Origin: Pandoraea oxalativorans
GTDB taxonomy: Bacteria; Pseudomonadota; Gammaproteobacteria; Burkholderiales; Burkholderiaceae
Assembly (NCBI RefSeq): GCF_000972785.3
Contig: NZ_CP011521.2
Span: forward strand, 1 to 34,979
Length of the DNA: 34,979 nucleotides
Direction of reading: 5' to 3'
Both the position numbers and the translations under genes were made by a program. This document shows positions 1,301 through 34,979 of the stretch, one piece after another. Within the stretch, counting starts at the first letter, position 1. Each line of letters opens with the position of its first letter. The notes below the pieces were generated by a model. The model was given only the letters and a program-made list of their open reading frames with translations. It ran no database searches and was not told the DNA's origin.

Positions 1301-1310
1301 CGCCGTTCCC

Positions 1311-1577: not shown

Positions 1578-1589
1578 GTCGCCATCTCC

Positions 1590-2297: not shown

Positions 2298-2314
2298 GGC
2301 GTTTCTCCTAGGAA

Positions 2315-4993: not shown

Positions 4994-4994
4994 G

Positions 4995-5602: not shown

Positions 5603-5610
5603 TCTCAGGT

Positions 5611-6698: not shown

Positions 6699-6733
6699 AC
6701 ATCCTCTTACGTGCAAAACGGATAGAGTATATT
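6699..6733. promoter_or_regulatory. Short divergent intergenic region between virB1 and the H-NS-like gene
   Basis: Only 35 bases separate the virB1 start from the H-NS-like gene start. Promoters for both must overlap here or lie inside the opposing coding sequences. A TATACT hexamer on the minus strand (6731-6726) could be a -10 for virB1, but I find no convincing -35 at the right distance. On the plus strand TATATT directly abuts the ATG, so the H-NS-like transcript would start elsewhere or be leaderless. Confidence 0.4.
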
Positions 6734-8970: not shown

Positions 8971-9043
8971 GGAGTCGATCTCCGGTGATGGAATAAGCCA
9001 CCATCCTTACGTCACGACTTCACCATTGCTACTACAAGCCGGC

Positions 9044-9067
9044 ATAGGTATATATATATATACCTAT
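9044..9067. promoter_or_regulatory. TA-rich site 2, perfect 24-bp palindrome
   Basis: The 24 bases from 9044 to 9067 read the same on both strands: ATAGGTATATAT followed by its exact complement ATATATACCTAT. It is the clearest member of the six-site set and gives the likely consensus half-site TAGGTATATAT. Confidence 0.7.
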
Positions 9068-9221
9068 ATGCATCACTACAAATGTGGCATTGGCCGGACA
9101 TCGCCCCGGCCGGTTTTCGGCTGTTGTCTGTTCGCGGCAGCTAGCGCCGCTGCAACGGTTGGAGGCCCGACTGACGCGGCCCGCTACTGCGGTCAATGCG
9201 AAACAGCAAGTCGCCCGAATT

Positions 9222-15716: not shown

Positions 15717-16772
15717 CTAAGCGAACCTCGACGGGGCAATGTGCGGTGGCGGTTTCTGAGCTAGCTCCTCAAGTTTCTCAAGGCAGCCCGTCAGTGTCTG
15801 TGCGTTCTTACTGCACCGTCCCACGAACAAGTCAGGGTCGTCCCCCTCCCCCTCCCACATCACGGCAGCGATCGACTCGACCTTGCAGCCAAGATCGAAC
15901 GCGTATTGGCCATCGTCGTGGCCATGTTCGTGCAGCTTGAGGAGCTTGAGCGCGTCGACGAGCCGGTGGGCCTGCTGCAGAAAACTAAGTTGGGCCTCGA
16001 GCATCCCGTCGGTGCTCTGTTCCTTGAGGTCTTGCGCCGCGAAGTCGTGGAACCCGGTGACCACACACTCTCCGTCATAGTGCATCGAGCAAAGCACGCG
16101 GGAGGTGTCCTCGTAATCCAGGTCCAGGTGCTCGGCGCGACCGGTGGTCGGCGTACAGTACGGGATGTCAAGCGTGCCTAGGCGGAAGACCGGATCCCCT
16201 TTGGCCGGAATCTGCCAGGTCAATGCGCTGTCCCGCGACGGCGGCGCATACTTGAGAAGGTCAGCGTACGCGCGCCCCTGTCGTGTCAGCGTGTCGGCGC
16301 TCAACAGACGCCCGAGTGCCGTGTAGGCGAGCCCCTTGTTGGACGGGACAATCTTTTCGGAAATCTGGCCCCACACCACGTCCCGGACGTCGTCCGCGTG
16401 CACCGAAAAGCTGACAGGTCCGCCCTCGTCGAGTCCCGCGATGCTGAACTTGAGGTGCCCGGAGGACAGCTCCTCCCAGAGGTTAGGCTGATACTTGTCG
16501 GGAATCAGGCTTTTCAGTTTGAGATAGGTTTCCAGCGTCGCGCGGTCGCCGAGGATGGTACCGTCCTTGCTTTGGGCCCCGGCGTTTTTTGCGAACTTCA
16601 GCTCATTCAGCAACTCGATCGCACTGGTTCGATCGGCGTCGCAGACCCAGTTGAGGAGCTGGTCCAGTCGGGTGCGCCAGGGGCCTTTGACTGCGTCCGT
16701 CGAGGAGACGGTGTTGAGGCCAATCGCGCTGCCAATCCAGTTGGTCTTGATCTTAACGGATAGTTCTGCCAT
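15717..16772 (-). CDS. Unrecognised 351-aa cargo protein
   Basis: A complete gene with a strong AGGAG site eight bases before the ATG at 16772. The product MAELSVKIKTNWIGSAIGLN...PPPHIAPSRFA is soluble-looking, acidic toward the C-terminus and contains no membrane segment or signal peptide. A stretch LHEHGHDDGQYAFDLG around residue 290 is rich in His and Asp and could bind metal. I cannot place it in a family. It lies alone in the IS island, between the ParB pseudogene and a broken IS6 copy, so it probably arrived on a mobile segment. Effector, toxin or immunity roles are all possible and unproven. Confidence 0.7.
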   Translation of the reverse strand: MAELSVKIKTNWIGSAIGLNTVSSTDAVKGPWRTRLDQLLNWVCDADRTSAIELLNELKFAKNAGAQSKDGTILGDRATLETYLKLKSLIPDKYQPNLWEELSSGHLKFSIAGLDEGGPVSFSVHADDVRDVVWGQISEKIVPSNKGLAYTALGRLLSADTLTRQGRAYADLLKYAPPSRDSALTWQIPAKGDPVFRLGTLDIPYCTPTTGRAEHLDLDYEDTSRVLCSMHYDGECVVTGFHDFAAQDLKEQSTDGMLEAQLSFLQQAHRLVDALKLLKLHEHGHDDGQYAFDLGCKVESIAAVMWEGEGDDPDLFVGRCSKNAQTLTGCLEKLEELAQKPPPHIAPSRFA

Positions 16773-17094
16773 GAAAAGTTCTCCTGACCTCGCGTCTGGA
16801 CGAGTCGGATTGTGGAAGGAAAGGCCCGTCAGGCAGGCTTATCCCCAATAACCCCAGGTTGGGGCACGACTGCCGGAACCCCGTCAGGCTAGCCCTGCAG
16901 TGAGGCCGGGGCTCGCCTGACGCGCTCAGCGCTTGGTCCCGGGAGGCGGCGCAACGTCCGCCTGACACCGTGCGCTCCCCAAAAGCCGCAGCGCACGCCG
17001 GGATTGATAGTCCGGCCGCAGCACGGCCCGTACGGTTATTGTCGACGGTGTCGCGCAGGACGACATCGGGTGAATGCCTGAAGTGTGGTGAAGT
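16773..17094. other. Intergenic stretch without recognised genes
   Basis: GC-rich sequence between the 351-aa gene and an IS6-like remnant. It contains a few short inverted repeats (for example CCCCAGGTTGGGG near 16850-16862). Frames crossing it are short and show no family resemblance. It presumably holds the promoter of the 351-aa gene near its right end. Confidence 0.4.
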
Positions 17095-17401
17095 GGTGTT
17101 GTCAAGTTGTTCGGTTGGCGTACGACCAAAGTCGGCAGGAGTTCGAAATGAAGCGCATTACGTTGCCATACGGGCGCACGTAGCCCTTTCCCAAGCCGCG
17201 ACGGCCTGGGTGCGCACCTCACGTTTATGCTGCGCGTTGCGATTGTAGCGGCATGCCCTGAACCGATTCGAAACTTGTCCATGGATCGATGCGAAGCGCT
17301 GCAGCTGGCGCGCCGACTTGAAGCCTCGCATCACCTTCTCGCGCACCCGTGTAGGCTGGTGCGAATTCTCTGCCCGATTGTTCAATCCCTTATGCTGCCG
17401 G
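17095..17401 (-). pseudogene. 3' remnant of a second IS6-family element
   Basis: On the minus strand, HKGLNNRAENSHQPTRVRE and the following KVMRGFKSARQLQRFASIHG are the C-terminus of an IS6 transposase of a different subtype (the IS15/IS6100-like RFKSARQLQRF pattern). The terminal repeat GGTGTTGTCAAGTTG (17095-17109) resembles the IS6 right ends seen here. The N-terminal two thirds are missing, cut at the left end of IS6 copy 3 (17402). Confidence 0.8.
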
Positions 17402-17773
17402 GGCACTGTCACGTTATCGGTAAGTTCGCGTACGATGAAGCAATGAGGAAACCGAAATCACTCTATCACGGCCACCGATTCCCAGCGTCGGTCATCAGCC
17501 ATGCTGTGCGTTGGTACTTCCGATTTCAGCTCAGCCTGCGCGACATCGAAGAATTGCTGTTCGAGCGTGGGGTGATAGTCAGCTACGAGACGATCCGCCG
17601 CTGGCGCGACAAGTTTGGCGCGGGCTTTGCCCACCGGGTCAAAGCGGCACGCCGCAAGCCCGGGAGCACGTTGCATCTCGACGAGATGTTCGTGAGCTTG
17701 CGCGGTGAACCATACCTGCTGTGGCGCGCCGTCGACGAGCATGGCGCGGAACTCGACATCCTGCTGCAGAAAC
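17402..17773 (+). pseudogene. IS6-family copy 3, truncated by IS256-family insertion
   Basis: The left repeat GGCACTGTCACGTTA (17402-17416) and the first 110 or so codons of the same transposase (ATG at 17443) are present, through HLDEMFV and LDILLQKR. The reading frame then enters the IS256-type end at about 17774, so the second Asp, the Glu and the right repeat are lost. It also carries Arg for Cys in RRWRDKFG and Leu for Trp in STLHLDE. Confidence 0.88.
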
Positions 17774-19118
17774 GGGGGGTGTCAGAAATTCCGTGTTCAA
17801 GGCGGGGTTGAGGTTTACACGGATGGCCGGACGAAACGATCCTCGTAAAGGATAGCGAATTGGTTCATAGCTGTCTTCCAATCTTGAGCGGCGCGGCCCC
17901 AATCTGCGGTGATGTTACGCAGCGCCAGCCAGATCAGCTTTGTTGCCGCATCATCGGTTGGGAAATGGCCTCGGGTCTTGATGATCTTGCGAAGCTGCGA
18001 GTTGATGTTCTCAATAGCGTTCGTTGTGTAGATCACCCGGCGCACAGCGGGCGGGAACGCGAAGAACGGAATGACACGATCCCAGGCATTGCGCCACGCG
18101 GCACTGACCGGCGGGAATTTCTGGCCCCACGGCCCTTGGGAAAATGCGTCCAATTCGGCCAGAGCCGCCTCGGCGCTTGGTGCCGTATAGATCGGCTTGA
18201 TTGCGGCGGCCAGCCCCTTACGATCCTTCCAGCTCGCGTAATCCAAACTGTTGCGGATCAGGTGGACGATGCACGTTTGCAACGTCGTCGCTGGAAACAC
18301 CGCGGCTAACGCCTCGGGCATGCCTTTGAGGCCGTCAGTCACAGCAATCAGGATGTCGCCCACGCCGCGCGTTTTCAGATCGTTGAACACTTTCATCCAG
18401 AACTTGGCCCCCTCGGTGTTCTCGATCCACAGGCCCAGGATGTCGCGCGTGCCGTCGGGCAGAATGCCCAGCGCGAGATAAATGGCCTTGTTACGCACGA
18501 CGGCATCCTCGCGGATCTTCACGCGCAGCGCGTCGAAGAACACGACCGGATACATCGGCTCAAGTGGCCGAGCCTGCCACGCCGTGACTTCAGCCATCAC
18601 TTCGTCAGTGACTGAGCTGATGAACTCGGGCGAGACCTCGGTGCCGTACTGCTCCAGAACAAAGCCCTGAATCTCGCGCACGGTCATACCCCGGGCGTAC
18701 ATGGCGACTATCTTGTCGTCGAAGCCTGTAAAGCGTCGTTCGTGTTTGGGGATCAACAGTGGTTCGAAGCTGCCATCACGGTCGCGGGGCACCCCGATGC
18801 GAATCGGGCCGCCTTCAGTCAGAACCGTCTTGGCGCCTTTGCCATTGCGCTGATTGGTCACGCTGGCCGGTTTGGCCGCGCCAGGCGCGTAGCCGAGATG
18901 GTGATTGAGCTCGCCCCCCAGCGCGCGTTCTATGAGCGCCTTCTTGAGCGCAAGCGTCGCGGCGTGGATGGCTTCGGCCGTCATCGGGCCGTTACCGAAT
19001 TGTTCAAGCAATTCAGCGGGAATTGCCGGTAGCTCTACCGGCGGGGTCTTCGGTTTGCGAGGCATAGTCACTCCTTGGCGACATGTTATGCCTCAAACAC
19101 GAAATTAATGACAGGCCC
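17774..19118 (-). mobile_element. IS256-family insertion sequence A
   Basis: The ends are GGGGGGTGTCAGAAATTCC at 17774-17792 and, on the other strand, GGGCCTGTCATTAATTTC starting at 19118. They share TGTCA, AATT, CGTGTT and a final AGG over about 28 bases. No 8-9 bp target duplication is visible, because the right end joins an IS3 remnant. It carries one full transposase on the minus strand. Confidence 0.8.
17815..19071 (-). CDS. IS256-family (Mutator-type) transposase A
   Basis: The 418-residue product has the Mutator-like layout: an N-terminal region (LERALGGELNHHLGYAPGA-like LIERALGGELNHHLGY), an RDRDGSFEPLLIPKHERR stretch, the catalytic first Asp in VVFFDALRVKI (about 170), the second in LIAVTDGLKGMPEAL (about 240), the CIVHLIRNS motif and the Glu in TTNAIENINSQLRK (about 355). 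The gene is intact, so the element may be active. The stop lies close to the left end of the element. Confidence 0.95.
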   Translation of the reverse strand: MTMPRKPKTPPVELPAIPAELLEQFGNGPMTAEAIHAATLALKKALIERALGGELNHHLGYAPGAAKPASVTNQRNGKGAKTVLTEGGPIRIGVPRDRDGSFEPLLIPKHERRFTGFDDKIVAMYARGMTVREIQGFVLEQYGTEVSPEFISSVTDEVMAEVTAWQARPLEPMYPVVFFDALRVKIREDAVVRNKAIYLALGILPDGTRDILGLWIENTEGAKFWMKVFNDLKTRGVGDILIAVTDGLKGMPEALAAVFPATTLQTCIVHLIRNSLDYASWKDRKGLAAAIKPIYTAPSAEAALAELDAFSQGPWGQKFPPVSAAWRNAWDRVIPFFAFPPAVRRVIYTTNAIENINSQLRKIIKTRGHFPTDDAATKLIWLALRNITADWGRAAQDWKTAMNQFAILYEDRFVRPSV

Positions 19119-19679: not shown

Positions 19680-19808
19680 CATACCCGGTGTCGGCTCCTT
19701 CTTCTTCGGCACGACCTTGCGCACCCCAAACGCCTCGGTCCAATCTTCTCCGCGCCATTCCTCGGCCGTGAACGTGACAATGTTCGCTTGCTTCTCGGTA
19801 TCGCTCAT
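19674..19808 (-). pseudogene. Truncated backbone gene downstream of the 240-aa gene
   Basis: The first 42 or so codons read MSDTEKQANIVTFTAEEWRG then EDWTEAFGVRKVVPKKKEPTPG. The frame then enters the IS3 end at 19679 and stops after two foreign codons. Its ATG overlaps the stop of the upstream gene (ATGA), so it was part of the same operon. No family is recognised; the remainder was lost with the IS insertions. Confidence 0.65.
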
Positions 19809-20527
19809 TTGTCGCCTCGGTTGGGGCGCGCCGCGCCAGCCGCGAGCCAGTCGTATAACGTGAAATTTTCATCGGCCATCCGGCGCACGTAGGGCAGGGC
19901 GCCCGGCAGCGCCAGCGCATCAGCCTTGCGTCCAGACCGCACCCATTCGGCCGTAAGGAACGCGACAAGCCTCCCGACCTGAACACGCGTCGTATGAAAA
20001 CCCGGTGTCTGGTACAGCGACTTGGCCAACACCGGCACTAACTCGTCGGCTCGCTTAGATCGCACGGTCGAGCGGATCTGAAAGCGCCACGCGCGCTCCG
20101 TCTCTGCGCACATGCGCCATGTCAGGCGAACGCCACCGCCAGCGGCCTTTGCATGTGGCAACTTCAACAGCTCGTAACCGGAGACGTGTACACGTTCCCC
20201 CTGAGACAACGCGTCTTTCAGCTTCTCGAGTTTATGCGCGTCATGTTCGCCATCCGTCACCATCAGGAACCAGTGGAGTGATTCACCGTGATCGAGGTCA
20301 GCGAGGATCAACCGCGCATTCGCTTTACCGAGTGTCTTCCGATAGGCGCGCTGGTTCATGTTCACGAATACGTCGTAGCGCTCGCCGAACTTCACGCACA
20401 ACGCCTCAGCGCGATCTGCCTTGACGGTACCGGCCGTGTGATGCCGGTAGCCATGCCGAACAAGGTCTAGCAACCTCTGCATGAGGAGCGTCTTGTAGCG
20501 GATCACGATGAGCGTTGGTGCTTTCAT
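19805..20527 (-). CDS. Conserved conjugative-plasmid protein of unknown function (240 aa)
   Basis: The product contains a charged N-terminal region (HGYRHHTAGTVKADRAEALC), a central RLILADLDHGESLHWFLMVTDGEHD stretch, VHVSGYELLKLPHAKAAGGG, a Trp-rich TWRMCAETERAW and a C-terminal LAKSLYQTPGFHTTRVQVGR. This order of motifs recalls a family of unknown proteins encoded on conjugative plasmids and integrative elements. I do not know its biochemical role. The Met at 20527 is preferred because the 5-codon extension has no ribosome site; neither start has a good one. It heads an operon that is cut by the IS3 end, and it lies divergent from the putative large RNA. Confidence 0.7.
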   Translation of the reverse strand: MKAPTLIVIRYKTLLMQRLLDLVRHGYRHHTAGTVKADRAEALCVKFGERYDVFVNMNQRAYRKTLGKANARLILADLDHGESLHWFLMVTDGEHDAHKLEKLKDALSQGERVHVSGYELLKLPHAKAAGGGVRLTWRMCAETERAWRFQIRSTVRSKRADELVPVLAKSLYQTPGFHTTRVQVGRLVAFLTAEWVRSGRKADALALPGALPYVRRMADENFTLYDWLAAGAARPNRGDK

Positions 20528-20578: not shown

Positions 20579-20999
20579 CCTTGCCGAGCAAGGCGTTTCA
20601 GTGATCTGGAATGCTGCGCATTCCAGCTTAATTATAAGAGATTCCGCGCAAAGCGCTCGACGGCAAAATGCCGACCTACAATGGATTTGCTGGCCGCCAA
20701 AGGCCTTAGCAACGCGTGCGTCATCAGCGTCGCCGCCGCCGCAGAAGCAGACCAGCGATGCAGCCAGAGGACAACCAACCCTTGCAGTACCGAACCGGTT
20801 GCCCTCGTGGTGTCAATCGCTCAAAGCGATTGCACGGTACAGGGGCAGCTCCCACAGACCGCAGTAGAAGTCCGGGGGCTGACCACCCCTGGATTCCATC
20901 ACACCACCGTTGAGCTGTATGGCTCGGGGCGCGGCTACCAACCGTGCTTAGACCGCTGAAGTCGTATGCGCGTAATGGCGCTGGTACGACTACGACGAG
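20579..20999 (+). ncRNA. Putative giant structured RNA, 5' segment
   Basis: No credible CDS is seen, but perfect hairpins follow one another: CCTTGC/GCAAGG (20579-20593), CTGGAATGC/GCATTCCAG (20606-20626), CGGCA/TGCCG (20661-20673), CAATCGCT/AGCGATTG with a 3-base loop (20814-20832) and GTCGTA...TACGAC enclosing GCGC/GCGC (20961-20990). It joins the 3' segment at 22440 once the IS256 element and one copy of its target duplication are removed. A GATAAT hexamer at 20567-20572 may be the -10 of its promoter, but no good -35 is present. The plus strand is inferred from loop types and the downstream segment. Confidence 0.55.
20991..20999. repeat. Target-site duplication, left
   Basis: TACGACGAG directly before the left end of IS256-family element B, matched exactly at 22431-22439. 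Nine bases fits the IS256 family. Confidence 0.9.
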
Positions 21000-22430
21000 G
21001 AGCTATTGTCGAATCTGGTGTACGGGGTGCTTTGGGAAATATGAGAAGGCGGTGGCGGTTTAGCTGAGAATGTTGCTTGTCGAAGGCACACCGAGCAAAG
21101 CCGGCGCGAGCCGGCCCCGACCACCATGAAGAAGATTACGAAAGAAACGAACGGCAGTAAAGCACAAACGAAGAGCGCGCTCGATGAACTGATCCAGCAA
21201 GGCGCGCGGCAGATCATCGAGCAGGCAGTCGAAGCGGAACTGGCGAGCATGCTTGAACAGTACAGCAACGTGAGGTCGATCGACGGTCGGCGTGCCGTGG
21301 TGCGCAACGGCTACCTACCAGAGCGCGAAGTCGTCACGGCCATCGGTCCGGTGCCGGTTCGGGTACCGAAGGTGCGTGATCGCTCGGGTTCGGGCATCCG
21401 CTTCAATTCGGCGGTCGTGCCGCCGTACGTTCGCAAATCCGCACGCGTGTCGGCCGCACTACCGTGGCTGTACCTGCGAGGCATCTCGACGGGCGACATG
21501 AGCGAAGCCATGGGCATCATGCTGGGCGGCCAGGTCAGCGGCCTGTCGCCAAATGTGGTGAGTCGTCTGAAGGCGCAATGGGCCGATGAGCATGCTCAGT
21601 GGAATCAGCGTGAGTTGTCGTTGGCGCGCTGGGTGTACTGGTGGGCTGACGGCATTCACACCGGCGTGCGCAGCGACGATTCCGACGGCCAGTGCCTGTT
21701 GGTGATCATTGGTGTCAAACCGGACGGAACGAAAGAGCGTGTGGCGATCAGTGACGGGTATCGGGAATCGAAGGCGTCGTGGGCCGAACTGCTGCTCGAT
21801 CTGAAAAAGCGCGGTCTGCAGTCAGGGCCGCTGCTGGCTTGCGGAGATGGTGCGATGGGATTCTGGGCAGCGATGGAAGAAGTGTTCCCGCAGACCGAGC
21901 ATCAGCGCTGCTGGTTCCACAAGATGGGCAACGTGCTCAACGCGCTGCCGAAATCGCAGCAGGCCCGCGCCAAAAAGGCGATGCAGGACATTTGGATGGC
22001 CGCCACGCGTGCCGAAGCGCTGGTTGCCTTCGATCACTTCGTTGATACCCACTCGGCAAAGTATCCGAAGGTGGTCGAAAAGCTGACGCAAGATCGCGAC
22101 GAGCTGCTGGCATTTTACGATTTCCCGGCCGAACACTGGCAGCATCTGCGCACGACGAATCCGATTGAATCGACCTTCGCGACGGTGCGTCACCGCACCA
22201 AGCGCACGCGCAACTGCGTCTCGCGCGCGACGTTCCTCGGCCTGGCATTCAAGCTGATCGAGTCGGCCGAAGACTCGTGGCGGCGCATCCGCGCCCCCGA
22301 AAAGATCGCGACGATGCTTGACGGGATGACGTTCAAGGATGGAGAGCCGGTGACCGACAGCACACCGGCTCAGCAGCCCCTGGCCGCCTAATCTTGCTCA
22401 CGCCCCGTACACCAGATTTGACTTTAACTC
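21000..22430 (+). mobile_element. IS256-family insertion sequence B, complete, with 9-bp target duplication
   Basis: The 1431-bp element begins GAGCTATTGTCGAATCTGG (21000) and ends, on the other strand, GAGTTAAAGTCAAATCTGG (22430). The first 30 bases of the two ends match at 25 positions, including CTGGTGTACGGGG. Flanking TACGACGAG duplications (20991-20999 and 22431-22439) show a clean and probably recent insertion into the structured non-coding region. Confidence 0.93.
21126..22391 (+). CDS. IS256-family transposase B
   Basis: The 421-residue Mutator-type transposase shows ALDELIQQGARQIIEQAVEAE at the N-terminus, VRNGYLPEREVVTAIGPVPV, the first catalytic Asp in YWWADGIHTGV (about 180), the second in LLACGDGAMGFWAAM (about 245), QRCWFHKMGNVLNALP and the Glu in TTNPIESTFATVRHR (about 345). 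It is only distantly similar to transposase A. It is intact, which with the target duplication suggests a functional element. Confidence 0.96.
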   Translation: MKKITKETNGSKAQTKSALDELIQQGARQIIEQAVEAELASMLEQYSNVRSIDGRRAVVRNGYLPEREVVTAIGPVPVRVPKVRDRSGSGIRFNSAVVPPYVRKSARVSAALPWLYLRGISTGDMSEAMGIMLGGQVSGLSPNVVSRLKAQWADEHAQWNQRELSLARWVYWWADGIHTGVRSDDSDGQCLLVIIGVKPDGTKERVAISDGYRESKASWAELLLDLKKRGLQSGPLLACGDGAMGFWAAMEEVFPQTEHQRCWFHKMGNVLNALPKSQQARAKKAMQDIWMAATRAEALVAFDHFVDTHSAKYPKVVEKLTQDRDELLAFYDFPAEHWQHLRTTNPIESTFATVRHRTKRTRNCVSRATFLGLAFKLIESAEDSWRRIRAPEKIATMLDGMTFKDGEPVTDSTPAQQPLAA

Positions 22431-22439
22431 TACGACGAG
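22431..22439. repeat. Target-site duplication, right
   Basis: TACGACGAG directly after the right end of IS256-family element B, identical to 20991-20999. Confidence 0.9.
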
Positions 22440-23236
22440 CGCTGGACGGTGTAACTCCGTCCTTCGACTCAATCCCCGAAAAGCATGGGGAACGAGGTTG
22501 GGCGACACGGAAACGGGCATAGCGAGGAAATGCGCTATGGCCCTGTGGAGCGTGAAAACGGGAGACGGCTTCGGCCGTCGTTAGCACCGTCTAGGGGCTG
22601 CGGGAAACCGTAGAACCTATGCCACACACGTAGGCTGCTGAGGCGTCCCGAAAGGGCGCAGGCGTGCAAGGGGAAACCTGGCGCACGTGGCACCTACCGG
22701 CGCAAGCGGGTGGGGTCGTTGCATAGCTTAAGCGTGTAAATGCGGCCGTAGAGGTCGCTATGTGGTGGGGCATCAAGCCTGTCTAAAGACGAAGCCGTTG
22801 ACGGCACAACAGGTAAGCGAGCCGCTTTGGAATCTCGGGCCGCTGAAAACCTGACGGGTGAGAGGGAACACCTCACTGTTGTTGCTTGAGGCGCAGGCGT
22901 GGTGCTCTGGCGCGCTGGTCGGCGTCAGTAGCGTTGCACTAACGTGGGAATCGCTAAGGCCACAACCGGGCTGGTAACCCGGTGGCTAGGCGAGGGAGAT
23001 TGGATCAGTAGGGCCGCACGGCGCAAGCCGTGTAACTGTTTGTCGCGATTCGTCTGAAGCGCAAACAGCAGGCGCAAGCCTGTCCGAAAGTCTGAAGCGG
23101 TTGCAAAACGGTGTGTTTGCGGGGTGGTTCCCGCAGTGGAATGTTGGAACGGGCGCGGCTGGTAACCGTGCCCGTCTTCGGAGTGGAATCCGGGGGTCGC
23201 CAACGTGCAATCAACCTTTCAATAGGAGGGCGTGAT

Positions 23237-23476
23237 ATGGCAGTAAGCAGTGCAGTTGCCGGCCGTCAAGGTCGGATTCACCTCGGCAGCGGTCAGGCCG
23301 TGGGTCAACTCGGCCCGCCGTATGGGGTCGTAGGCATCGCAAAGTCGCGCGCCTCGGCGTGCGCAAGTCAACCCGGCACCGGTCAGGCCGGTGGGCAAGT
23401 CGGCCCTTTTGTGGCCGAAGGCAAACAGGGAAACGGCGTTATCGCGTCGTCTTCGCTGTGGCAAACCGGGGTTTGA
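23237..23476 (+). CDS. Possible 79-aa protein inside the structured region
   Basis: An ATG at 23237 follows a strong AGGAGGG site by six bases and opens a frame of 79 codons. The product MAVSSAVAGRQGRIHLGSGQ... contains an imperfect duplicated unit, GSGQAVGQLGPPY and GTGQAGGQVGPFV. The same duplication exists at DNA level (GGTCAGGCC...TCGGCCC at 23292 and 23381). No family is recognised. It may be a real peptide encoded by the RNA or a chance frame produced by RNA repeats; the ribosome site is the only positive evidence. Confidence 0.35.
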   Translation: MAVSSAVAGRQGRIHLGSGQAVGQLGPPYGVVGIAKSRASACASQPGTGQAGGQVGPFVAEGKQGNGVIASSSLWQTGV

Positions 23477-23641
23477 CTCCGGCGTGCCAATCGACAAACA
23501 GGCCACAAGCCTGCGTCAGTGGCATCAAGGTTGAGGGCGTGGGAAGCCTTCAATTGCGGTACGGCCGCAGACCGCTTCTGCTCGGCAGGGTGGTGCGCCT
23601 TTTTAGGCAATCTGTCCGTGCTATGGCACACGCCGACCCAC

Positions 23642-23669
23642 AACCCGAGAGACGAAAGTCTCTCGGGTT
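23642..23669 (+). repeat. Perfect 12-bp hairpin with GAAA loop before the coupling-protein gene
   Basis: AACCCGAGAGAC and GTCTCTCGGGTT enclose GAAA. It is not followed by a T-run (CCTCCTAATCC follows), so it is a structural element or a processing site more than a classical terminator. It lies 24 bases before the GTG start at 23694. Confidence 0.8.
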
Positions 23670-23693: not shown

Positions 23694-25445
23694 GTGACGT
23701 TTCACAACACACCTAACCTGCAAGCGATGCAATCGACGGCCGCTGTGCTCGTCGATCACGCCTTGTTATGGTCCAGCCCCTGGTACTGGATCGTTCTGGC
23801 TGTCCCGCTCTTCATGGTGTCGATGCTTCATCCGGTGCCGTGGCGGTTGCCCTTAAACGATGCTTCATTCCGGGACTGGCTGACGTTTATCGGGCGGCGG
23901 GCTTCTGTTATTGCGCTCTACGCATGGCTGTTCTTAGTGCCACCCATCGCGTTTTTCCTGTTCATCGTCACGTCTGGCATGCCGTTCCAGGCAGCCGCCT
24001 CGAGCTTCTTCGCATGGCTCGGCGGGCGGATCGGCCAGTACTGGTCGATCATCCTCGGTGCGGTCCTGTATGGCGCACTGCTGCGCTTCCTGTGGGATAG
24101 GTACGTCCTGCCGAGATTGTCGAGCTACCTGCGATCGGTACGCGTCAGGCAAGACACCGACAAGTTGGTCGATGCGCGAGACGAAATCGCCAACCTTCAA
24201 GCGAAGCAATTCGAGCCGGAAAAATTCTTTGTGGAGGGCAAGATTTTTTACGGGCTGGATGTGAACGACCAGCCCATTTACTACGGGCTAGAGGACTTCT
24301 ACACAACGCATCACTTGGTGCTTGGCCCGAGCGATTTCGGTAAGGGCATCATCCTGCAAAGCGTATTCAAGCAAGTCATCGGCTTTGGCTTCGGCGTGTT
24401 TTATGTCGACCCGAAGGGCGACAACTGGTTGCCTTACCTGCTGCAAAACGAAGCGAAGAAAGCCGGACGCCGTTTTGTTTATCTCGATCTGCGACCGGAA
24501 GGCAAAGGCGTATGGCACCCGTTCATGGGCGGCAGCGATCGCGAGCGGCGCACAAGAATCGTGCGGGCCTTCAATCTCGAAAAGGTGGGCGACAACTCCG
24601 ACGTTTACAAGGCGAAAGAGCGGGCCTTGCTCGACGACGCGCTGGAAAATACCGATGGCTCCATCAAGGCCATGCTCGAATATGTGAAGAAGGAACAGGA
24701 CAGCGACTTGTCGATGTTGCGCGACTCATTGCGCGAATGGTCACGAGTGAACACCTTCGCACAACCGGGCAAACGCAAAGGCCACTCGATCGAGGCATGC
24801 TTGATGAATAACGCCATCGTGTACGTGCGCGGCGACCTGCGCGATCCGGTCGTCAAGGAGGCGACAAAAGCCTACATTGCGGAGCTGACGGGCGAAATTA
24901 CCCGGCTGGAACCTGTCCGGCCGGCGCACGTTGTGTTCAGTGCCGACGAACTGAAATTCATCGCCTGCGCGGAACTGATGGAAGCCATCGCAACCATTCG
25001 TCAGTTCCGCTGCAACATGTTCCTCCTTGGCCAGTCGTTCGCGAACGTCGAAGCGCCAGACGATAAGCGGCTTGACGGTAAGGCGCTGGCGAGCGAGTTG
25101 GAAGTCAATACGCCGATTAAATTCGTCTACCGTGCAGAAGATAAACGCACAGCAGAGTGGACCGAATATATGTCCACGAAACAGCAACTCTGCGTCGTTC
25201 AGCGCGAAACGACAAAGACGAATACGCACGGCGGCGAAGAATGGGAAGGACACCGCATGGTCGGCAGTCAGGAAGCGCCGATCATTTCCGCCACGACCGC
25301 ACGCAATCTCCCGCGTCGGGTCGCGATCGGCTTCATGCCGGGGCGACTCGCAACCAAGGTCTTCACCAGTCCGACCAAGATCGACAACAGCGAGGCGTCG
25401 TGGGAAGACAAGCCGGCCGGGTCCGAGACACTGCACCCCCGATAG
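23694..25445 (+). CDS. virD4: Type IV coupling protein (VirD4/TraD-like ATPase)
   Basis: The coupling protein brings the relaxosome to the T4SS and pumps DNA. The 583-residue product has N-terminal membrane segments (about 30-45, 70-95 and 115-135), a P-loop-like GPSDFGKG at 211-218 (last residue Gly instead of the usual Thr/Ser), a VDPKGDNW stretch at about 238-245, Walker B VVFSADE at 413-419 and NMFLLGQSFANVE with the motif Gln at about 447. The start is a GTG with GGGAG upstream. It lies alone on the plus strand directly after the putative large RNA, apart from the virB operon. The Walker A variant GKG deserves checking. Confidence 0.92.
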   Translation: MTFHNTPNLQAMQSTAAVLVDHALLWSSPWYWIVLAVPLFMVSMLHPVPWRLPLNDASFRDWLTFIGRRASVIALYAWLFLVPPIAFFLFIVTSGMPFQAAASSFFAWLGGRIGQYWSIILGAVLYGALLRFLWDRYVLPRLSSYLRSVRVRQDTDKLVDARDEIANLQAKQFEPEKFFVEGKIFYGLDVNDQPIYYGLEDFYTTHHLVLGPSDFGKGIILQSVFKQVIGFGFGVFYVDPKGDNWLPYLLQNEAKKAGRRFVYLDLRPEGKGVWHPFMGGSDRERRTRIVRAFNLEKVGDNSDVYKAKERALLDDALENTDGSIKAMLEYVKKEQDSDLSMLRDSLREWSRVNTFAQPGKRKGHSIEACLMNNAIVYVRGDLRDPVVKEATKAYIAELTGEITRLEPVRPAHVVFSADELKFIACAELMEAIATIRQFRCNMFLLGQSFANVEAPDDKRLDGKALASELEVNTPIKFVYRAEDKRTAEWTEYMSTKQQLCVVQRETTKTNTHGGEEWEGHRMVGSQEAPIISATTARNLPRRVAIGFMPGRLATKVFTSPTKIDNSEASWEDKPAGSETLHPR

Positions 25446-25485: not shown

Positions 25486-26715
25486 CTATAATTTTTTGTA
25501 AAAAAAATCGCCCCCTTTTTCACTCATCAAACGTTCGAAATCCTCTTGAACTAAGGAATTCACTCTGAATTCAACCAACCGGTGAAAGTTATTTTTCTTT
25601 AAATAAAGATTGTCTTCGAAAGAGTTAATAAGCCTCAAGTAATCTTCAAATGCACCAATAAATCCATACTTTGGCATTACCCCATTGCACATGTTGCGAG
25701 CGTCGTTTATTTCGGCGTACCTGCTCCAATGATCTAAAATATCGTAATCAACGTTTCCATTGTCGTCTTCATGCCTTACGCAGATCATGACGTGATCATC
25801 AGGCCTATCCAGCCTTCCAATCCTGACCGCGGACTTAAAGTTGCTCGGTATTTCTGGGTCGTTTTGTATCAAATGATAAAGTAGTTCATTTATCTCACCG
25901 CAGTTCCCTTTTTGGAATGGGCGGAGACTGCGGTTAGTATTTTTTGGATCTCGTATGTCTTCGGTTTCCTTGCGTGCTAGTGCTCGATAATTTTCGACCC
26001 CTTGTGGGTCTTTTCTCGCCATAATGGCATAATTTGCGGTTGGCGAATACTCAACAATCTCATTGATTTTGTCCATATGCTGCATAATGCGTGCTTTTAT
26101 TGGTTCAGAAATCGCAGAGTCGTTATTTATTTTTGAAGGCTCAATTAACAATTCCCCATCAAAATCCCGCATCAAATCAGCGTAACCAGACAACCGGCCG
26201 TCGATCTTCGAGATAATATCTCGGTCTTTGTAAAATTTAACGTATGTGTTTTTGTCTATTTTTTCTCTTTTATCATACGAAATCCTGTAATATGAATCAT
26301 TACTTATTGACTTGTTTATAGAGTCGGTATTTCTGTTTAGTTTTGTATTTATCTTATGAAGAAATCCGTCTTCATGCCTTGCTATGAAAACGCAGCACTT
26401 CAAAAAGTTAATTGCTTGCTCAGCTTGTTGCTTTTGATATCCACACCCCAGACTTTTCTTTATCATTGTCATGCAAAAGACAATATCATTCTTACTTAAT
26501 GTGGAATTATTTCTCTTTGTTTGAATGATACTCTTTATTTCATTTAGGCTGGCATTCAATGAATTTTCGCTGGCGCAAATTCGCAGCCAATCGTCAGTAT
26601 ATTCCTTCATCAAATTCAATGCTTCGGTCTTATCTTTAAACACCGAAAAATCTTCACTCTTCTTATAAGTTGTCGTGCATGCATTACTGAGCATGACTTT
26701 GTCGTTAGGCGGCAT
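25486..26715 (-). CDS. AT-rich cargo gene: putative Cys-His-Asp enzyme, effector or toxin candidate
   Basis: The 409-aa product is encoded by DNA visibly richer in A+T than the neighbours and is rich in Lys, Asn and Asp, so it was probably acquired from elsewhere. No signal peptide or membrane segment is present. Near the C-terminus lie FQKGNCGEINELL (Cys272), DRPDDHVMICVR (His308) and YDILDHWSR (Asp325/Asp328): the order and spacing of a papain-like or transglutaminase-like triad, as in several secreted bacterial effectors and toxins. The first 270 residues show no known domain. I do not recognise the family and find no hrp-type promoter box upstream. The gene overlaps no neighbour and ends 40 bases from the coupling-protein stop, convergent with it. 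Confidence 0.75.
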   Translation of the reverse strand: MPPNDKVMLSNACTTTYKKSEDFSVFKDKTEALNLMKEYTDDWLRICASENSLNASLNEIKSIIQTKRNNSTLSKNDIVFCMTMIKKSLGCGYQKQQAEQAINFLKCCVFIARHEDGFLHKINTKLNRNTDSINKSISNDSYYRISYDKREKIDKNTYVKFYKDRDIISKIDGRLSGYADLMRDFDGELLIEPSKINNDSAISEPIKARIMQHMDKINEIVEYSPTANYAIMARKDPQGVENYRALARKETEDIRDPKNTNRSLRPFQKGNCGEINELLYHLIQNDPEIPSNFKSAVRIGRLDRPDDHVMICVRHEDDNGNVDYDILDHWSRYAEINDARNMCNGVMPKYGFIGAFEDYLRLINSFEDNLYLKKNNFHRLVEFRVNSLVQEDFERLMSEKGGDFFYKKL

Positions 26716-28569: not shown

Positions 28570-30228
28570 ATGCCAACGATTCAGCCCCGCGGGATTTGCG
28601 CCAAGATGACGCGCCTCGCGGTCGACCAGACTGCGGAGCGCCACCCCAACGCGCTGTCCCTCGAGGATAACCGGTTCGAGAACACGAATACAGAGGCGTT
28701 TCGGCGCCACCTCGGACTGGTGGGCCCCGCCAGTGAGTACTTTGTGCCGCTCCCACAGGTGCCCGAGGTGGCGCCCCTGACGCCCGAGGCGCTGGCCATC
28801 GCGGGGCGGACCATCGACGGGCTACAGGTGCCGACGTCGGTGGCCGACCTCGGCCCCTTCTTGCTACCGCTGATCTTGGGCATAGTCCCCGGCGAGGTCG
28901 ATCGCCTTGGCCAGCGCGACACCAAGCGCCCCGTTGACACCGCGCTGGGCCATCTGGGCCGGTGGCTGGCGGGCATGAAACACATTGGACGGGGGGCCGA
29001 CAGTGCGAGTCGGTCAGCGCTCCCCGAGGTGCCCTGGGAGCGCTCCCTGACATCGACGTTCGCGGGGCAACAGATCCCGGAGGCGGTGGCCGCCTTGGGT
29101 CCCAGCGGGGTCCCCATGTTCATCGACCCGGGAATGGCTTTGTTTGATCTCGATAACCGTCCCTACACCGCGGACATGTTTGAGGATGAGCCGGGCTATG
29201 TGGCTGGGTTTTTCGCGGGCATGAACTATGTGGAATCCCCCGTCTTTGACATCACGCAGTTCGAATGCCTGAAGCAGTTGTATGCCAGGGTGGCACCGCA
29301 TACGCGGATGTGCATTCCGATGCCCGCGTTCGTGGTGGCGCGCGTCGAGCTGCCTGATCAGGAGGCGCAGCAACATGACCTGACACAATGCGCGAACGAT
29401 AGCATTCAGTTTGATCGCAAGCACCAACAGTTGCTGCTCAAGACGAGGTTGGGTAGTGTCAGCGTGCATGCGTTCAGGACTGACGTCGACGCCGCCCAAA
29501 AAGAGAGCTTTCTTAAGCCGCTGGACACCCACCCGAACACCGTGGCGGACGCCGACGCATTGGCGCGCTTGTTTGACGGGGCGGCGAAACCGTTGCGTTA
29601 CGTGAGCGCGACACACCGCATGGTGCATCAGGCCGAGCATGGCCCCGGCTACGCAGAGGCCTATTTCCCTGGGCATCGCCTGCCCAGTGATTTCGCCGCG
29701 TATTCCCACCCGCCTGCGGGCGACCCGGTGCCCCGGCGGATCAAGCTCCGCACCTTCGACACGGGCACCGCCCCTTTCGTCGTGACCCGCTATCAGAACG
29801 AAGCGCATATCCGCACCTTATTTGAGTACAAGCTCAAAAAATTCCGGATCGCCAGGTTGGCGTTGTTCCCCGCGCGAATGCAAATTGCGCTGATCGCCGG
29901 GTTTGTGGCGGAAATGGTCAATGCGCATCCCTTCACCGATGCGAACAACCGCATTTGGACCCAGATTATATTGAATCACCTGTTGCGGCGTTGCGGCCAG
30001 TCCGAGTCGATCCTGGCGGCGCCCAATGGCTTCGCCGCCGTGGCCAGGTACCACCTGAACCGCTTCCGCCCGCATGCTGCGCTGGCTCCCGAGCCCACCT
30101 CCCCCGACTTCCTCGCCGCTCTGAAAGATGAGGTGCTCGCTATTGAGGACGGCCAACGTTACTATCAGGCCCTGCGCGATCGGGCGCGGGCGCCGGTCGG
30201 CTTTGTCTCGCCGGATCGCTGGCTGTGA
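28570..30228 (+). CDS. Fic-domain protein, possible secreted effector or toxin
   Basis: Fic enzymes transfer AMP or related groups to target proteins. The motif HPFTDANNR occurs at residues 453-461, matching HPFxx(G/A)N(G/N)R with the catalytic His and the phosphate-binding Asn and Arg; DA-N-N replaces the usual DG-N-G. It is preceded by the typical amphipathic helix (ALIAGFVAEMVNA) and followed by helices with HLLRRCG. The first 380 residues have no recognised domain and make the protein long (552 aa) compared with simple Fic toxins, more like effectors. An inhibitory (S/T)xxxE(G/N) helix is not seen, nor a partner antitoxin gene. The start has an AAGGTGAG site upstream. It is convergent with the end of the virB operon. 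Confidence 0.85.
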   Translation: MPTIQPRGICAKMTRLAVDQTAERHPNALSLEDNRFENTNTEAFRRHLGLVGPASEYFVPLPQVPEVAPLTPEALAIAGRTIDGLQVPTSVADLGPFLLPLILGIVPGEVDRLGQRDTKRPVDTALGHLGRWLAGMKHIGRGADSASRSALPEVPWERSLTSTFAGQQIPEAVAALGPSGVPMFIDPGMALFDLDNRPYTADMFEDEPGYVAGFFAGMNYVESPVFDITQFECLKQLYARVAPHTRMCIPMPAFVVARVELPDQEAQQHDLTQCANDSIQFDRKHQQLLLKTRLGSVSVHAFRTDVDAAQKESFLKPLDTHPNTVADADALARLFDGAAKPLRYVSATHRMVHQAEHGPGYAEAYFPGHRLPSDFAAYSHPPAGDPVPRRIKLRTFDTGTAPFVVTRYQNEAHIRTLFEYKLKKFRIARLALFPARMQIALIAGFVAEMVNAHPFTDANNRIWTQIILNHLLRRCGQSESILAAPNGFAAVARYHLNRFRPHAALAPEPTSPDFLAALKDEVLAIEDGQRYYQALRDRARAPVGFVSPDRWL

Positions 30229-31236: not shown

Positions 31237-32265
31237 TTAGCGCTCGGCGATTTGCTTCTTGAACAGTGGGTCGTACAGCAACTCTACGACGTTCCAGTCG
31301 CGCATGTAGATGATGACGTCGACCGTCGCGTGAATCGTCCGCAGGATCATGTCGTAATCGAGCATACGGCCGACCTCGGACGATTTCACGAGGTCAGCGA
31401 TACGCGCCGGGGTTTCGGCCGCGCTGTTGGCGTGCGTTGAAAAGATACCGCCGGGATGGCCCGTGTTCGCACTCTTGATGTAGTCCCACGCCGCATCGTC
31501 GCGCAGCTCAGTCAGAAAGATACGGTCGGGCGACAACCGCATGCAGGTTTTCAGACAGGCGCGAGCGGATAAGCGGCCCTCCTGTTCGCCGTAGACCAGG
31601 TAGCCAACCTCGTCCAGCGCTTCGGAACCGACTTCGTGGGTATCTTCCAGAATCATCACGCGCTCGGTACGTGGCACGTATTTCAACAGCGAGCGCGTGA
31701 ACGTCGATTTGCCGGAGCCGGTCGCGCCGGCGACGGCAATATTCAGCTTGCCGATGACCGCCATTTTCAGAAATTCGACAGGATCGCCGGTCCGGGTTAC
31801 CTCGTCGCGCAAGGCCATCATCTGTGCTTCGAACGGCGCCAGCCGACCGGAATCCGCGTGGGTCTTAATCTTCAGCTGCGCGAAGCGGCCTTCGCTTCGC
31901 AGTTCCTCGAGATCCTTGTCGACGGCCAAGTGCTTCCGGATGGCCACCAGCACCGTTCCTTCGAGCACGGCCGGCGGCCAACAAATAATGCCCCGAGAGC
32001 CGTCCGGCAGCAGCAAGTCGTTGACCGGCTGGCGAGGCAAGCCGTTTGCGTTGAGAAGCGTATTGGTGAGTCGCTCGAGATACGCACGGGTCAGGAACGG
32101 CGCACCGTGGAAAATGCGCCCCTTGGGGGTGGCGCACACGATCTGACCGAACTTGTTGCAGCGCAGCTCGAAAACGTCCGGGTCGCGCAGATACGGCTCG
32201 AGCGGCCCTAACGTCGAAATCAGCGAGCGGTTGTTGAAATACTTGACGGTCGATGGCGTGCTCAT
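31237..32265 (-). CDS. virB11: VirB11 T4SS ATPase
   Basis: VirB11 is a hexameric cytoplasmic traffic ATPase that switches between pilus assembly and substrate export. The 342-residue protein has Walker A GATGSGKS at 180-187, an Asp box MILEDTHE at about 204-211, Walker [10 protein letters not shown] at 248-256 and the His box [15 protein letters not shown] at 268-282. The N-terminal domain runs [20 protein letters not shown]. Its start overlaps the virB10 stop (ATGA). Confidence 0.97.
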
Positions 32266-33413
32266 TGTTGCGAACCGTCCGGAGAGAGCGTGTACACGTC
32301 ACTGAAATCCAGGTCACGACGAACAAAAATGTTGACCGCATCGGCCTGTTGATCGTAAAGCGTCGGCGGAATGTCGATCGTCGCACGCACCGCTTCGGTG
32401 GCGAGCTGGTTCGATGTGTTCGACGTATTGTCGAGATTCAGATAGGTGTTACCGTTGCCGGAGCCCTGTGCGCTGTTTGCCGCGTACTGCAAGCCGGCCT
32501 GGCTGGCACTTGAAAAGATCGAAATCAGCATCGCAGGTCCGAAGCGCGCCCAAAAGTGGTGATCGACCTGGCCAGGAATGCCGGCGCTGCCGAGCGCGTT
32601 GGTGCCGGGGCTGTCGAGGTTGACGATGGTGTTATCCGGATTACGCAGACGCGTCCAGAGAACGAACACCCGGTCTTGTCCCTGCTTGAGCGCCGACGTG
32701 ATTTCGCCGTTCACGTGCGCGCCCTTGTCGATCAGCTTGACCTTTCCATCGGCCGAATACACGTCGCGGCTCACTTGGCATGACACCTGACCGGGCACGG
32801 TCGTATCCAGCTCGGTTTTCGTGCCGCACGGGATCATCACGCCGCTCGGCACGGTCAGGCTCGGGTGGGCCAGCATGGTCGCCTTGGCGGCTTGCGGTCG
32901 CGCCGCATTGGTCATGCGATCGAGGGAATCGCTCGACTGACTCACGCGCCTCATGGGCGAGTTGGCCGGCGCTGGCTGCGTGCCAGCGTTCTGGTCGCCG
33001 GCGTTCGGCGTGCTGCCGGGCTGCATGCCGAGCCGGCGGGCGTTCGCGACTTGCTCCGGCGTCGGCTGCTGCTGTTGATTCTGATTGTTGATAGGTATCG
33101 CCGGCGTGGCGTTCGCCGTGGGCGCACTCGCGGCAATGGCCGGGCTAGCCGGGCTGGCCAGGCTGGCCGGCGTGCTGTTGAACGTCCGCGCGGGCAGTGC
33201 GGCCCTAAACGTCTGGTCGTGTTTCGCTGCCGCGCTAGCATCGCCGACCTGCTTCGCATGGAGCGCGTTGTAGACGAGCCAGCCGACCAGGACCGTCCCC
33301 CCGAGGAGTACCAGAACCATGAATGCGGCGAGGCCCGGAACGGATTTCCGGGGACCGCTCAGGAACGGTTGCCGACCGTCGCTGACCGGCGGCGTCTCGT
33401 TGCGATCGGTCAT
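32262..33413 (-). CDS. virB10: VirB10, envelope-spanning T4SS core protein
   Basis: The 383-residue protein has a cytoplasmic N-terminus, one membrane helix at about 28-49 ([20 protein letters not shown]), a long Pro/Ala/Gln-rich periplasmic linker, and a C-terminal TrbI/VirB10 domain starting near [19 protein letters not shown]. The domain shows [60 protein letters not shown] and [19 protein letters not shown], all characteristic. VirB10 bridges both membranes and senses ATP energy. Start and stop overlap virB9 and virB11 (ATGA each). Confidence 0.96.
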
Positions 33414-34297
33414 CGCTCATCTCCATTCTGTTTAAGCACGCGGCGGACATTAGGCGAAACGGTGCCACTCGAATTCGCGCCAAATGCAGGGTTGTAATTG
33501 GTATTCAAAACACCGATCACCTTGTCTTTCGCACGGACGCGCCATTGCCGCGCAACGTTTTCCGCAACGATGATGTTGTGGTTTGGCCCCTCGATGTGAA
33601 CGTTAGGCACGGCTTCCTTGCCGGCTGCGTTGATGTAGAAAATGTTGGGCAACTCGGTATTGCCGGGAAACTTGAAATATGTGAAGCGGAAGTTGTCCCA
33701 CACATTGACGGGTTTAATGTCGTCGGCAGTCGAGTCGTCCGAGCGCGAATAGCTCATGTTGATCATGCCTTGCGACGACGCGCTCGCAAGCGCTTCCTTA
33801 ACGCGCTCGGCGTTGGACTTGGCAAGTGCCGCTTTGCGGTCGTTGTCCGGGTACGAGTAGTTCAACGCGACCGTTGCTGCACGCATCGCCCACGGTGACT
33901 TGATGAAGGTACTGGGGGTGTCGCCGGCTTGGCCGGCAGCGGCACCGCGCGAGCCGATGAAGTGCAGCAGGATTTGATAGACGTGGCGATCCGTGATGAG
34001 CGTCAAATTCGTGTCACTGTTGGCCTGCATCGGCCAAATGATGACGTGGTTGCCGCTTTGAGAAAGTCGCCATCCGCCGGGATCGCCGAACGCGTGCGTG
34101 ACATACCGCTCACCCGGCGCGACGGTGATGGTGAGGGACAAGCCGATCACGCAATTGACCTCGACCGTATCAGCGGGGTTGTAAACCACTGACTTAATGC
34201 GCCGATCGTAGGGGGAATTGGACTTCGGGCCAACGGCCCACACTTGTGCACTCGAGAGTGCAAGCGCAGCGATCAAGGGAATCAGGGCAAGGCGCAT
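33410..34297 (-). CDS. virB9: VirB9, outer-membrane core T4SS protein
   Basis: The 295-residue protein has a signal peptide ([20 protein letters not shown]) followed by the VirB9 pattern: [20 protein letters not shown] (N-terminal), [34 protein letters not shown], then a linker and the C-terminal region [32 protein letters not shown]. VirB9 forms the outer-membrane ring with VirB7 and VirB10. It lies 3 bases after virB8 and overlaps virB10. Confidence 0.96.
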
Positions 34298-34299
34298 GA

Positions 34300-34979
34300 T
34301 CAGTTCCCCACTGCTTCGGTGTTCGGCCGGAACGCCGGCACTTGGAAACCGAGTGGATTGATGTACCGCTGTTGTGCGGTCATCAGCTTCGACGCGTACT
34401 TATAGGAAACCGTCGCAATCCAATGCACGGGCGGGTCAGCCTCCGGACGGTCCTTGTATTTCGTGGTCCGCGTGTAGCGGACAGTCGCAAGGCCATGCAC
34501 GCGATCCAGAATGACAGACTCGACGTGCGTCGTCGTCGCTTGCGAGTCGCCGAGCACCTTGTCAGGTGCGTTCCGGCCAGACCAGAGTTTGTTGTATGTG
34601 GACGCCACGTCATCGGCGGCCGTCAAACGAATAAAGTCGTAGTCGGCCTGCGCGGTGTAGAAATTATAGCTTTCGTGGTGAATGACGAACTGCGCGACCC
34701 AATACGCGTCGGTTGCCTCGCCATACGACGTGTGTTCGCCAGGAATCAACGAAACCTGCTGAACAGCACCTGTGACCGGGTCTTGCACAAGCATGTGCTC
34801 GGGAATTGGCTGACTGTAACGCCAGATCACGAAGCCAGCGAGCGCGAACGCAAGCAAACCGAATCCGATACCGGCAGTCGCGACCTGCCACCCACGCCGG
34901 CGCGAAGTGAGAACTTCATCGAGCAAGTCCAGCTCGAGGCCGGCCCGTTCTTCCTTGTACCGGTCGATGGCATCGGCGG
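34300..34979 (-). CDS. virB8: VirB8, T4SS inner-membrane assembly factor (codes from residue 11 on; gene crosses the window ends)
   Basis: VirB8 is a bitopic inner-membrane protein that nucleates the T4SS through its periplasmic domain. Reading on the minus strand from the last base, the frame gives ADAIDRYKEERAGLE and continues into the body of the protein. Joined in frame to positions 31-1 it makes 236 residues, a usual VirB8 length. One membrane segment lies at about residues 41-63, after an Arg-rich cytoplasmic stretch (TSRRRG), followed by a periplasmic domain with the typical YNFYTAQ and VRYTRTTKY stretches. The stop is 3 bases before the virB9 start, and the order VirB7-like, virB8, virB9, virB10, virB11 is standard. 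The alternative is a TTG start at 34926, which would drop the conserved DAIDRYKEER stretch and is unlikely. Confidence 0.93.
   Translation of the reverse strand, partial: ADAIDRYKEERAGLELDLLDEVLTSRRRGWQVATAGIGFGLLAFALAGFVIWRYSQPIPEHMLVQDPVTGAVQQVSLIPGEHTSYGEATDAYWVAQFVIHHESYNFYTAQADYDFIRLTAADDVASTYNKLWSGRNAPDKVLGDSQATTTHVESVILDRVHGLATVRYTRTTKYKDRPEADPPVHWIATVSYKYASKLMTAQQRYINPLGFQVPAFRPNTEAVGN

Follow-up and report, generated by a model that had tools for sequence, protein, structure and literature searches.

A circularly permuted group II ribozyme beside the coupling-protein gene of a Pandoraea oxalativorans plasmid, and its possible part in plasmid transfer

We analyzed the complete 34,979-bp contig NZ_CP011521.2 of Pandoraea oxalativorans (number C5 in its genome; hereafter the window), a plasmid on which a large structured RNA lies beside the gene for the type IV coupling protein (T4CP). 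This RNA is almost certainly a circularly permuted (CP) group II ribozyme and thus belongs to a known class, formerly called T-large RNA, that was described by Roth et al. in 2021 (PMC8637638); the earlier note had taken it for an unrecognized giant RNA, which was mistaken. The class was described there with no known role. Judging from comparisons of sequences, the RNA and the protein encoded next to it, AcpG, probably make up a particle that is the relaxase-equivalent DNA-processing module of these plasmids, a reading that we hold somewhat above even.

The identity of the RNA rests on several features. The alignment of relatives carries the motif AGC....TGC..GCT.G....GCT of group II intron domain 5 (D5); domain 6 (D6), which has a bulged A, follows, and GGGCG comes next. 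The resulting D5-D6-D1 order is the domain order of CP group II ribozymes (PMC8637638). In the window, D5 lies at 20960 to 20991 on the plus strand, 5′ of D6 and D1, with the AGC triad, a five-pair stem, and a short bulge. Its pairs were tested in the relatives, where 100% of the cells of the stem are paired in the 17 covering sequences of the 19 aligned (the rows of L002 and L003 start 11 nucleotides [nt] late). D6, as read from the sequence, spans 22437 to 22473 (plus strand) and contains the bulged branch-point A; in the alignment, helix 3 surrounds an unpaired A at column 74, and 94.1% of the relatives' cells are paired. The class rule for the reversed splice sites, as given in PMC8637638, is NU, a linker of 15 to 86 nt, and GGGCG. 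Accordingly, D6 in the window ends at the 3′ splice site CTCAAT, followed by a 26-nt linker (22474 to 22499, plus strand), which is the expected circular product, and by the 5′ splice site GGGCG, with which the D1-D4 part (22500 to 23100, plus strand) begins. The 3′ end of the linker is IBS1, GAGGTT, and all six of its positions pair with EBS1 (GGAATCTC, 22829 to 22836, plus strand). Over the 32 loci that passed a flank-length filter, some of them from near relatives, 158 of 192 EBS1/IBS1 positions are paired, misses included, against a mean of 66.7 and a maximum of 88 in 500 shuffles.

The earlier note had proposed looking for compensatory changes, and the D5-D6 pairs do covary. In the 19 sequences, 96.6% of the cells are paired (81.2% when shuffled), both partners have changed in 12 of 20 pairs (a level reached in 1 of 500 shuffles), and the covariation score is 0.426 (0.152 when shuffled, with 0 of 500 as high; slid structures reached at most 0.165). 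Paired positions hold 16 G-U cells and 2 A-C cells, which indicates that the plus strand acts as RNA. The Rfam search that had also been proposed returned no match in the window at gathering scores (Rfam 15), whether to OLE, GOLLD, ROOL, or any other model. Rfam searches of the relatives L002, L006, and L007 (E up to 5) found no family over the ribozyme, at gathering score or below. A group II D5 match at 6203 to 6230 of L002 (E = 0.35) was rejected as chance, being located in a hairpin before the T4CP gene, outside the real D5. For the class, PMC8637638 describes additional pseudoknots (P1/3′ end, P2/D2, and D3/D1) and self-processing in vitro to a circle and a branched RNA in five species.

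The RNA is split in the window, as had been claimed, by an IS256-family insertion sequence (IS). In three Paraburkholderia plasmids (pBN5, pPT70, and pPT65), the counterparts of the two flanks form one uninterrupted sequence, and 21000 to 22430 (plus strand) is therefore an insertion; the identity is 85.3 to 87.0% for the right part and 74.2 to 75.2% for the left part. The open reading frame (ORF) at 21126 to 22391 encodes a Mutator-family transposase (PF00872, Transposase_mut, 4.8e-66), and a 9-bp duplication read from the sequence, TACGACGAG, borders the element (20991 to 20999 and 22431 to 22439). The RNA profile matches only 20889 to 20999, the 5′ piece through D5 (plus strand, E = 2.1e-14), and 22430 to 23098 (E = 1e-117), so that the conserved ribozyme is about 770 nt long and not about 1.65 kb as first thought. 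As far as the flank comparisons show, only the three Paraburkholderia plasmids also have 20579 to 20888 and 23101 to 23669. The absence of a long gene from the rejoined region agrees with their records, in which no annotated feature lies under the match (the gene table of the collection is incomplete). The right-hand piece is present as a single copy in the window's genome. Because the IS sits between D5 and D6, this copy of the ribozyme is probably disabled in cis.

The RNA had first drawn notice for many perfect hairpins with GAAA, GCAA, and TTCG loops. When a strict hairpin was defined as a Watson-Crick stem of at least 5 bp closed by a GNRA or UNCG loop, the region contained four on the plus strand and none on the minus strand, well above the mean of 0.11 and the maximum of 2 in 500 first-order Markov sequences; 67 overlapping tiles of the window gave a mean of 0.42 and a maximum of 4 on the plus strand. 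With any 4-nt loop allowed there are five hairpins, a count reached by 23 of the 500 simulations, so it is only the special loops that are unusual. Three of the four strict hairpins fall within the conserved RNA and one in the flanks. The excess of hairpins thus stands, as does the large structured plus-strand RNA that they were taken to indicate, while the hairpin at 22598 to 22613 includes a G-T pair, which makes it less than strictly perfect.

The core of about 700 nt occurs, whole or in part, on plasmids of Thiothrix, Azotobacter, Halomonas, Escherichia coli, Acinetobacter, Deinococcus, Gluconacetobacter, Novacetimonas, Polaromonas, Paraphotobacterium, Burkholderia glumae, and Pseudoalteromonas; pPNAP05, a locus from PMC8637638, is among the aligned relatives. 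Phage records gave no match to the window query. In E. coli, the RNA was found in 21 of 5,426 genomes, on 15 plasmids of 27 to 35 kb and 7 of about 3 kb, and none of 23 places was chromosomal. The copies on the 27- to 35-kb plasmids are 99.7 to 100% identical across 15 genomes from varied hosts, and strain FHI_NMBU_11 has one large and one small RNA plasmid. The single small E. coli plasmid examined has no acpG annotation, and both small E. coli plasmids of the plasmid collection are missing from the AcpG list. The 3-kb plasmids thus resemble hitchhikers that would carry only a cis-acting part, with the large plasmid as helper. A role as a replication origin was dropped because the RNA match on pMtBL (3119 to 3821) falls outside OriR (1918 to 2759, according to PMC10033558). 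Among the carriers, Thiothrix unzii pTunz1 has two CP group II RNA copies (approximately 17002 to 17799 and 32400 to 33206). On a Halomonas plasmid (L005), the "hypothetical protein" annotated opposite the ribozyme (1006 to 1830, minus strand, antisense) is probably a spurious gene call, and an Azotobacter plasmid (L007) encodes a PrrB/RsmZ-type small RNA (sRNA) at 9011 to 9154 on the plus strand (61.2 bits, above gathering).

The gene divergent from the RNA in the window (19805 to 20527, minus strand) encodes a 240-amino-acid (aa) protein whose family adjoins the RNA in other plasmids and genomes. From its position, its length, and the homolog beside the RNA of pPNAP05, we infer that this family is AcpG (TTHC007), which PMC8637638 describes as the product of a divergent gene of about 250 aa beside the RNA, with no protein homology found. 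The window protein had no Pfam or PHROG match at an E value of ≤0.01, and its best NCBIfam match had an E value of 0.056. Five residues (Y51, E101, R112, P175, and F177) are invariant in 52 AcpG sequences. The motif [YFM]xDD is present in 8 of these and absent from the other 44, including the window protein, so a catalytic YxDD is not a conserved AcpG motif. In structure comparisons, group II intron proteins top the VIA list of one AcpG model and the Foldseek list of another, below significance, and VIA leaves other folds possible. The models are suggestive of a resemblance to the palm-thumb domains of group II maturases and Prp8, a likeness that appears to be new. On a Gluconobacter plasmid (L027, 9645 to 10811, minus strand), an AcpG domain is part of a 388-aa ORF, and the profile finds no ribozyme there.

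The link between the RNA and conjugation genes was confirmed. Directly beyond the RNA and its leader, the T4CP gene (23694 to 25445, plus strand; Pfam TrwB_AAD_bind, 5.6e-7) is part of an extensive type IV secretion system (T4SS) set identified by Pfam. The minus strand encodes VirB11, VirB10, VirB9, and VirB8 at 31237 to 34926 and VirB6, VirB5, VirB4, VirB3, a VirB2-like pilin, and a VirB1-like lytic transglycosylase (SLT) at 251 to 6716. A relaxase was not among the Pfam matches (E ≤ 0.01) of 48 window ORFs or of 20 ORFs in a further scan, with some ORFs omitted from the scans. Profile searches of the contig with PF03432, PF13814, and PF08751 also gave no match, the other relaxase families being covered through the ORF scans only. 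At each of the other two VirB4 loci of the same genome, a TrwC relaxase lies at a distance of about 12 kb. Likewise, pEc631_3, pGDIPal5I, and pBN5 have secretion genes and no annotated relaxase; the Pfam tally of L019 to L021 lists 25 of 46 families from 48 chosen ORFs, which leaves a weak relaxase match possible, and reliance is therefore on annotation and MOB-suite typing. By typing, 25 of 26 and 27 of 28 AcpG-bearing plasmids (overlapping lists, whose records are not independent, since a single kind of E. coli plasmid makes up 10 of the 26) are nonmobilizable, against 134 of 1,314 carriers of coupling-protein relatives.

Three sister plasmids (L029, L030, and L031) have coupling proteins that resemble that of the window, the nearest full-length relatives whose plasmids were outside the matches listed when RNA and AcpG were searched for. 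Both were expected there in diverged form, but profiles at maximum sensitivity gave nothing above noise. Instead, each plasmid has a 237- to 290-aa protein beside the coupling protein, encoded divergently from the T4CP gene across a repeat-rich gap of 0.9 to 1.1 kb. The three proteins are mutually homologous; one has a weak Replic_Relax match (E = 0.0015, below the cutoff) and also matches annotated MobC proteins. Carriers of relatives of the MobC-like protein were typed as mobilizable or conjugative in 855 of 895 and 96 of 136 cases. VirB11 directly follows the MobC-like gene in two of the three plasmids (Bermanella has F-type genes instead), and in Gluconacetobacter the matching order is VirB11, AcpG, RNA, and coupling protein. 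Between E. coli pEc631_3, with the RNA, and Proteus pHJ90, with the MobC-like gene, the coupling proteins are 47.5% and the VirB11 proteins 60% identical. The coupling protein of the window is 41% identical to that of Eleftheria (MobC-like) versus 31% to that of Gluconacetobacter (RNA).

In a tree of nine coupling proteins, the starred branches force three label changes between RNA and MobC-like carriers, and 0% of 200 bootstrap trees need only one (5 to 95% range, 3 to 3); a single gain with two losses could account for all three. Of the coupling-protein relatives, 22 reach at least 80% coverage. Among the matches listed, 13 are clearly above 80%, of which 4 have RNA and AcpG; of the remaining 9, 7 have a MobC-like match among those listed, Providencia appears only in the organism tally, and for Pantoea none was seen. 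The lack of a recognized relaxase beside a T4SS and T4CP, together with a MobC-like protein in that place in sister plasmids, appears to be a new point.

How the proposed module might work can be sketched from these comparisons, and any action of the RNA on DNA, like any role in transfer, is put forward here as conjecture. The RNA and AcpG would form a ribonucleoprotein that does the work of oriT and relaxase, readying plasmid DNA for the coupling protein and the T4SS. RNA nicking and rejoining of DNA is chemically plausible, given the reverse splicing of group II introns. A more specific version, which we put forward only tentatively, is that the RNA itself nicks, becomes attached to the 5′ end of, and religates plasmid DNA by the reversed and forward forms of splicing step 2, with the help of AcpG, and that such a ribozyme relaxase has repeatedly replaced the protein relaxase. 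The 3′-OH of D6 would attack a DNA strand at a site matched by EBS1, after or without back-splicing, in a reversal of splicing step 2. This would free a 3′-OH from which strand displacement could start and cap the 5′ end with RNA for export, and the forward splicing step would reclose the strand. AcpG may then be a maturase relative without polymerase residues, as Prp8 is, if its models are a guide.

Several observations weigh against a module for transfer. A VirB4 match on the AcpG contig occurs only in the window's genome, 1 of 34 AcpG genomes (many are drafts, and contigs are a coarse unit), and the coupling-protein profile matches the AcpG contig only in the window and, weakly, in G199, a single chromosome where the nearest match is 27 kb away. 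Thirteen acpG loci, with or without the RNA (L063 to L072 and L074 to L076), lie on larger contigs, of 67 kb to 4.4 Mb; among the matches listed (25 of 39 families), their neighbors include integrases (5 of 32 ORFs), Cas3, restriction enzymes, and genes for replication. These neighbors fit integrated mobile elements and are compatible with other roles as well. In genome G260, AcpG and a relaxase match are 26 kb apart. The three MobC-like sister plasmids are themselves typed as nonmobilizable, from which it follows that mobility typing misses diverged relaxases. The tree is small, its rows were picked by hand, and the number of changes is no higher with shuffled labels (mean, 2.7). Finally, a recurrent nick site, with the ligated linker junction as the DNA target, was not found in a weak test that caught the linker in 14 of 19 plasmids or loci; its weakness arises from the pattern, which placed the start of the linker wrongly in Halomonas, B. 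glumae, and Gluconacetobacter and did not catch the copies of the window, the three Paraburkholderia plasmids, and Sulfuriferula. Scattered single matches occur in pTunz1, Paraphotobacterium, pPNAP05, and Deinococcus, one of the two in pPNAP05 being the complement of its own EBS1. The conjugation role guessed at in the earlier note has comparative support that falls short of proof.

The strongest competitor, to which we give about one chance in four, is that a protein, either AcpG or an unrecognized plasmid protein, is the nicking enzyme, with the RNA as a cofactor or regulator needed for transfer. SGI1 sets a precedent: according to PMC9299015, a self-encoded sRNA (sgm-sRNA) between mpsA and oriT is required, and MpsA is tyrosine recombinase-like, with no relaxase. 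The invariant AcpG residues speak for this reading as well, and three window ORFs (25486 to 26715, 15717 to 16772, and 28570 to 30228) have no Pfam match. On the other hand, the AcpG models look suggestively like a polymerase palm-thumb and not like a nuclease, and the RNA retains active-site parts and splice sites that a passive cofactor would not need. It is less likely still that RNA and AcpG are a selfish, addictive, or defense/interference element of plasmids and islands, with relaxase loss as decay and the position coincidental. The AcpG contigs without a VirB4 match and the integrase, restriction, and Cas3 neighbors point that way, and a mobile-element or defense use is suggested in PMC8637638; decay, however, does not predict three MobC-like interchanges alongside extensive T4SS gene sets, and the nearly identical RNAs on the large E. 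coli plasmids of 15 genomes also speak against this reading. It is very improbable that the sequence works as single-stranded DNA with a structure of its own, either an oriT or an origin. To the eye, inverted repeats are plentiful in the corresponding intergenic regions of the sister plasmids too, but the G-U excess, the confinement of special tetraloop hairpins to the plus strand, and the self-splicing of class members in vitro (PMC8637638) all argue for RNA.

Some further features of the plasmids were seen. The leader between the ribozyme and the coupling-protein gene (23101 to 23669, plus strand), which is common to the three Paraburkholderia plasmids and ends in a hairpin (23642 to 23669), contains a 39-nt direct repeat (82%; 23278 to 23316 and 23368 to 23406) that could be a protein-binding or transfer site. 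The window has a second Mutator/IS256-family transposase (17815 to 19071, minus strand), an IS6-type transposase (17227 to 17811) with a score below the cutoff, and DDE_Tnp_IS240 matches in three scanned ORFs. L029 to L031 combine type IV secretion genes with a MobC-like protein that typing seems to overlook.

CP group II ribozymes have so far been without a known role and AcpG without known relatives, and no conjugation role is proposed for them in the accessible part of PMC8637638. In the open-access literature without preprints, "CP group II" occurs only in that paper among the matches listed; further papers mention circularly permuted group II introns, so a role may already be in print. 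If RNA and AcpG do form a relaxase-equivalent module, "nonmobilizable" plasmids, some with large secretion sets and some of only 3 kb, may spread in a way not yet on record, and bacterial conjugation would involve a natural ribozyme.

Canonical group II introns have the same active-site RNA parts as this system, and the modeled helper protein may resemble their maturases in fold; they differ from the CP RNA and AcpG in domain order, in that the AcpG gene lies outside the RNA, and in the lack of [YFM]xDD from most AcpG sequences. The SGI1 sgm-sRNA module (PMC9299015) likewise places an RNA beside an atypical processing protein, and its RNA is needed for mobilization, whereas that RNA is small and processed, MpsA is a tyrosine recombinase, and the accessible text mentions no group II features. 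MOBC modules (MobC/Replic_Relax) are alike in place, as a MobC-like gene stands by the coupling protein in the sister plasmids, and unlike in composition, being a protein with a repeat-rich intergenic region rather than a ribozyme with AcpG, whose profile has no match to MobC-like proteins. The window copy differs from the CP group II ribozymes described in PMC8637638 in being cut by an IS between D5 and D6, and it shares with them the D5-D6-D1 order, the AGC triad, the bulged A, the NU-linker-GGGCG arrangement, the EBS1/IBS1 pairing, a divergent gene for a protein of about 250 aa, and residence on a plasmid.

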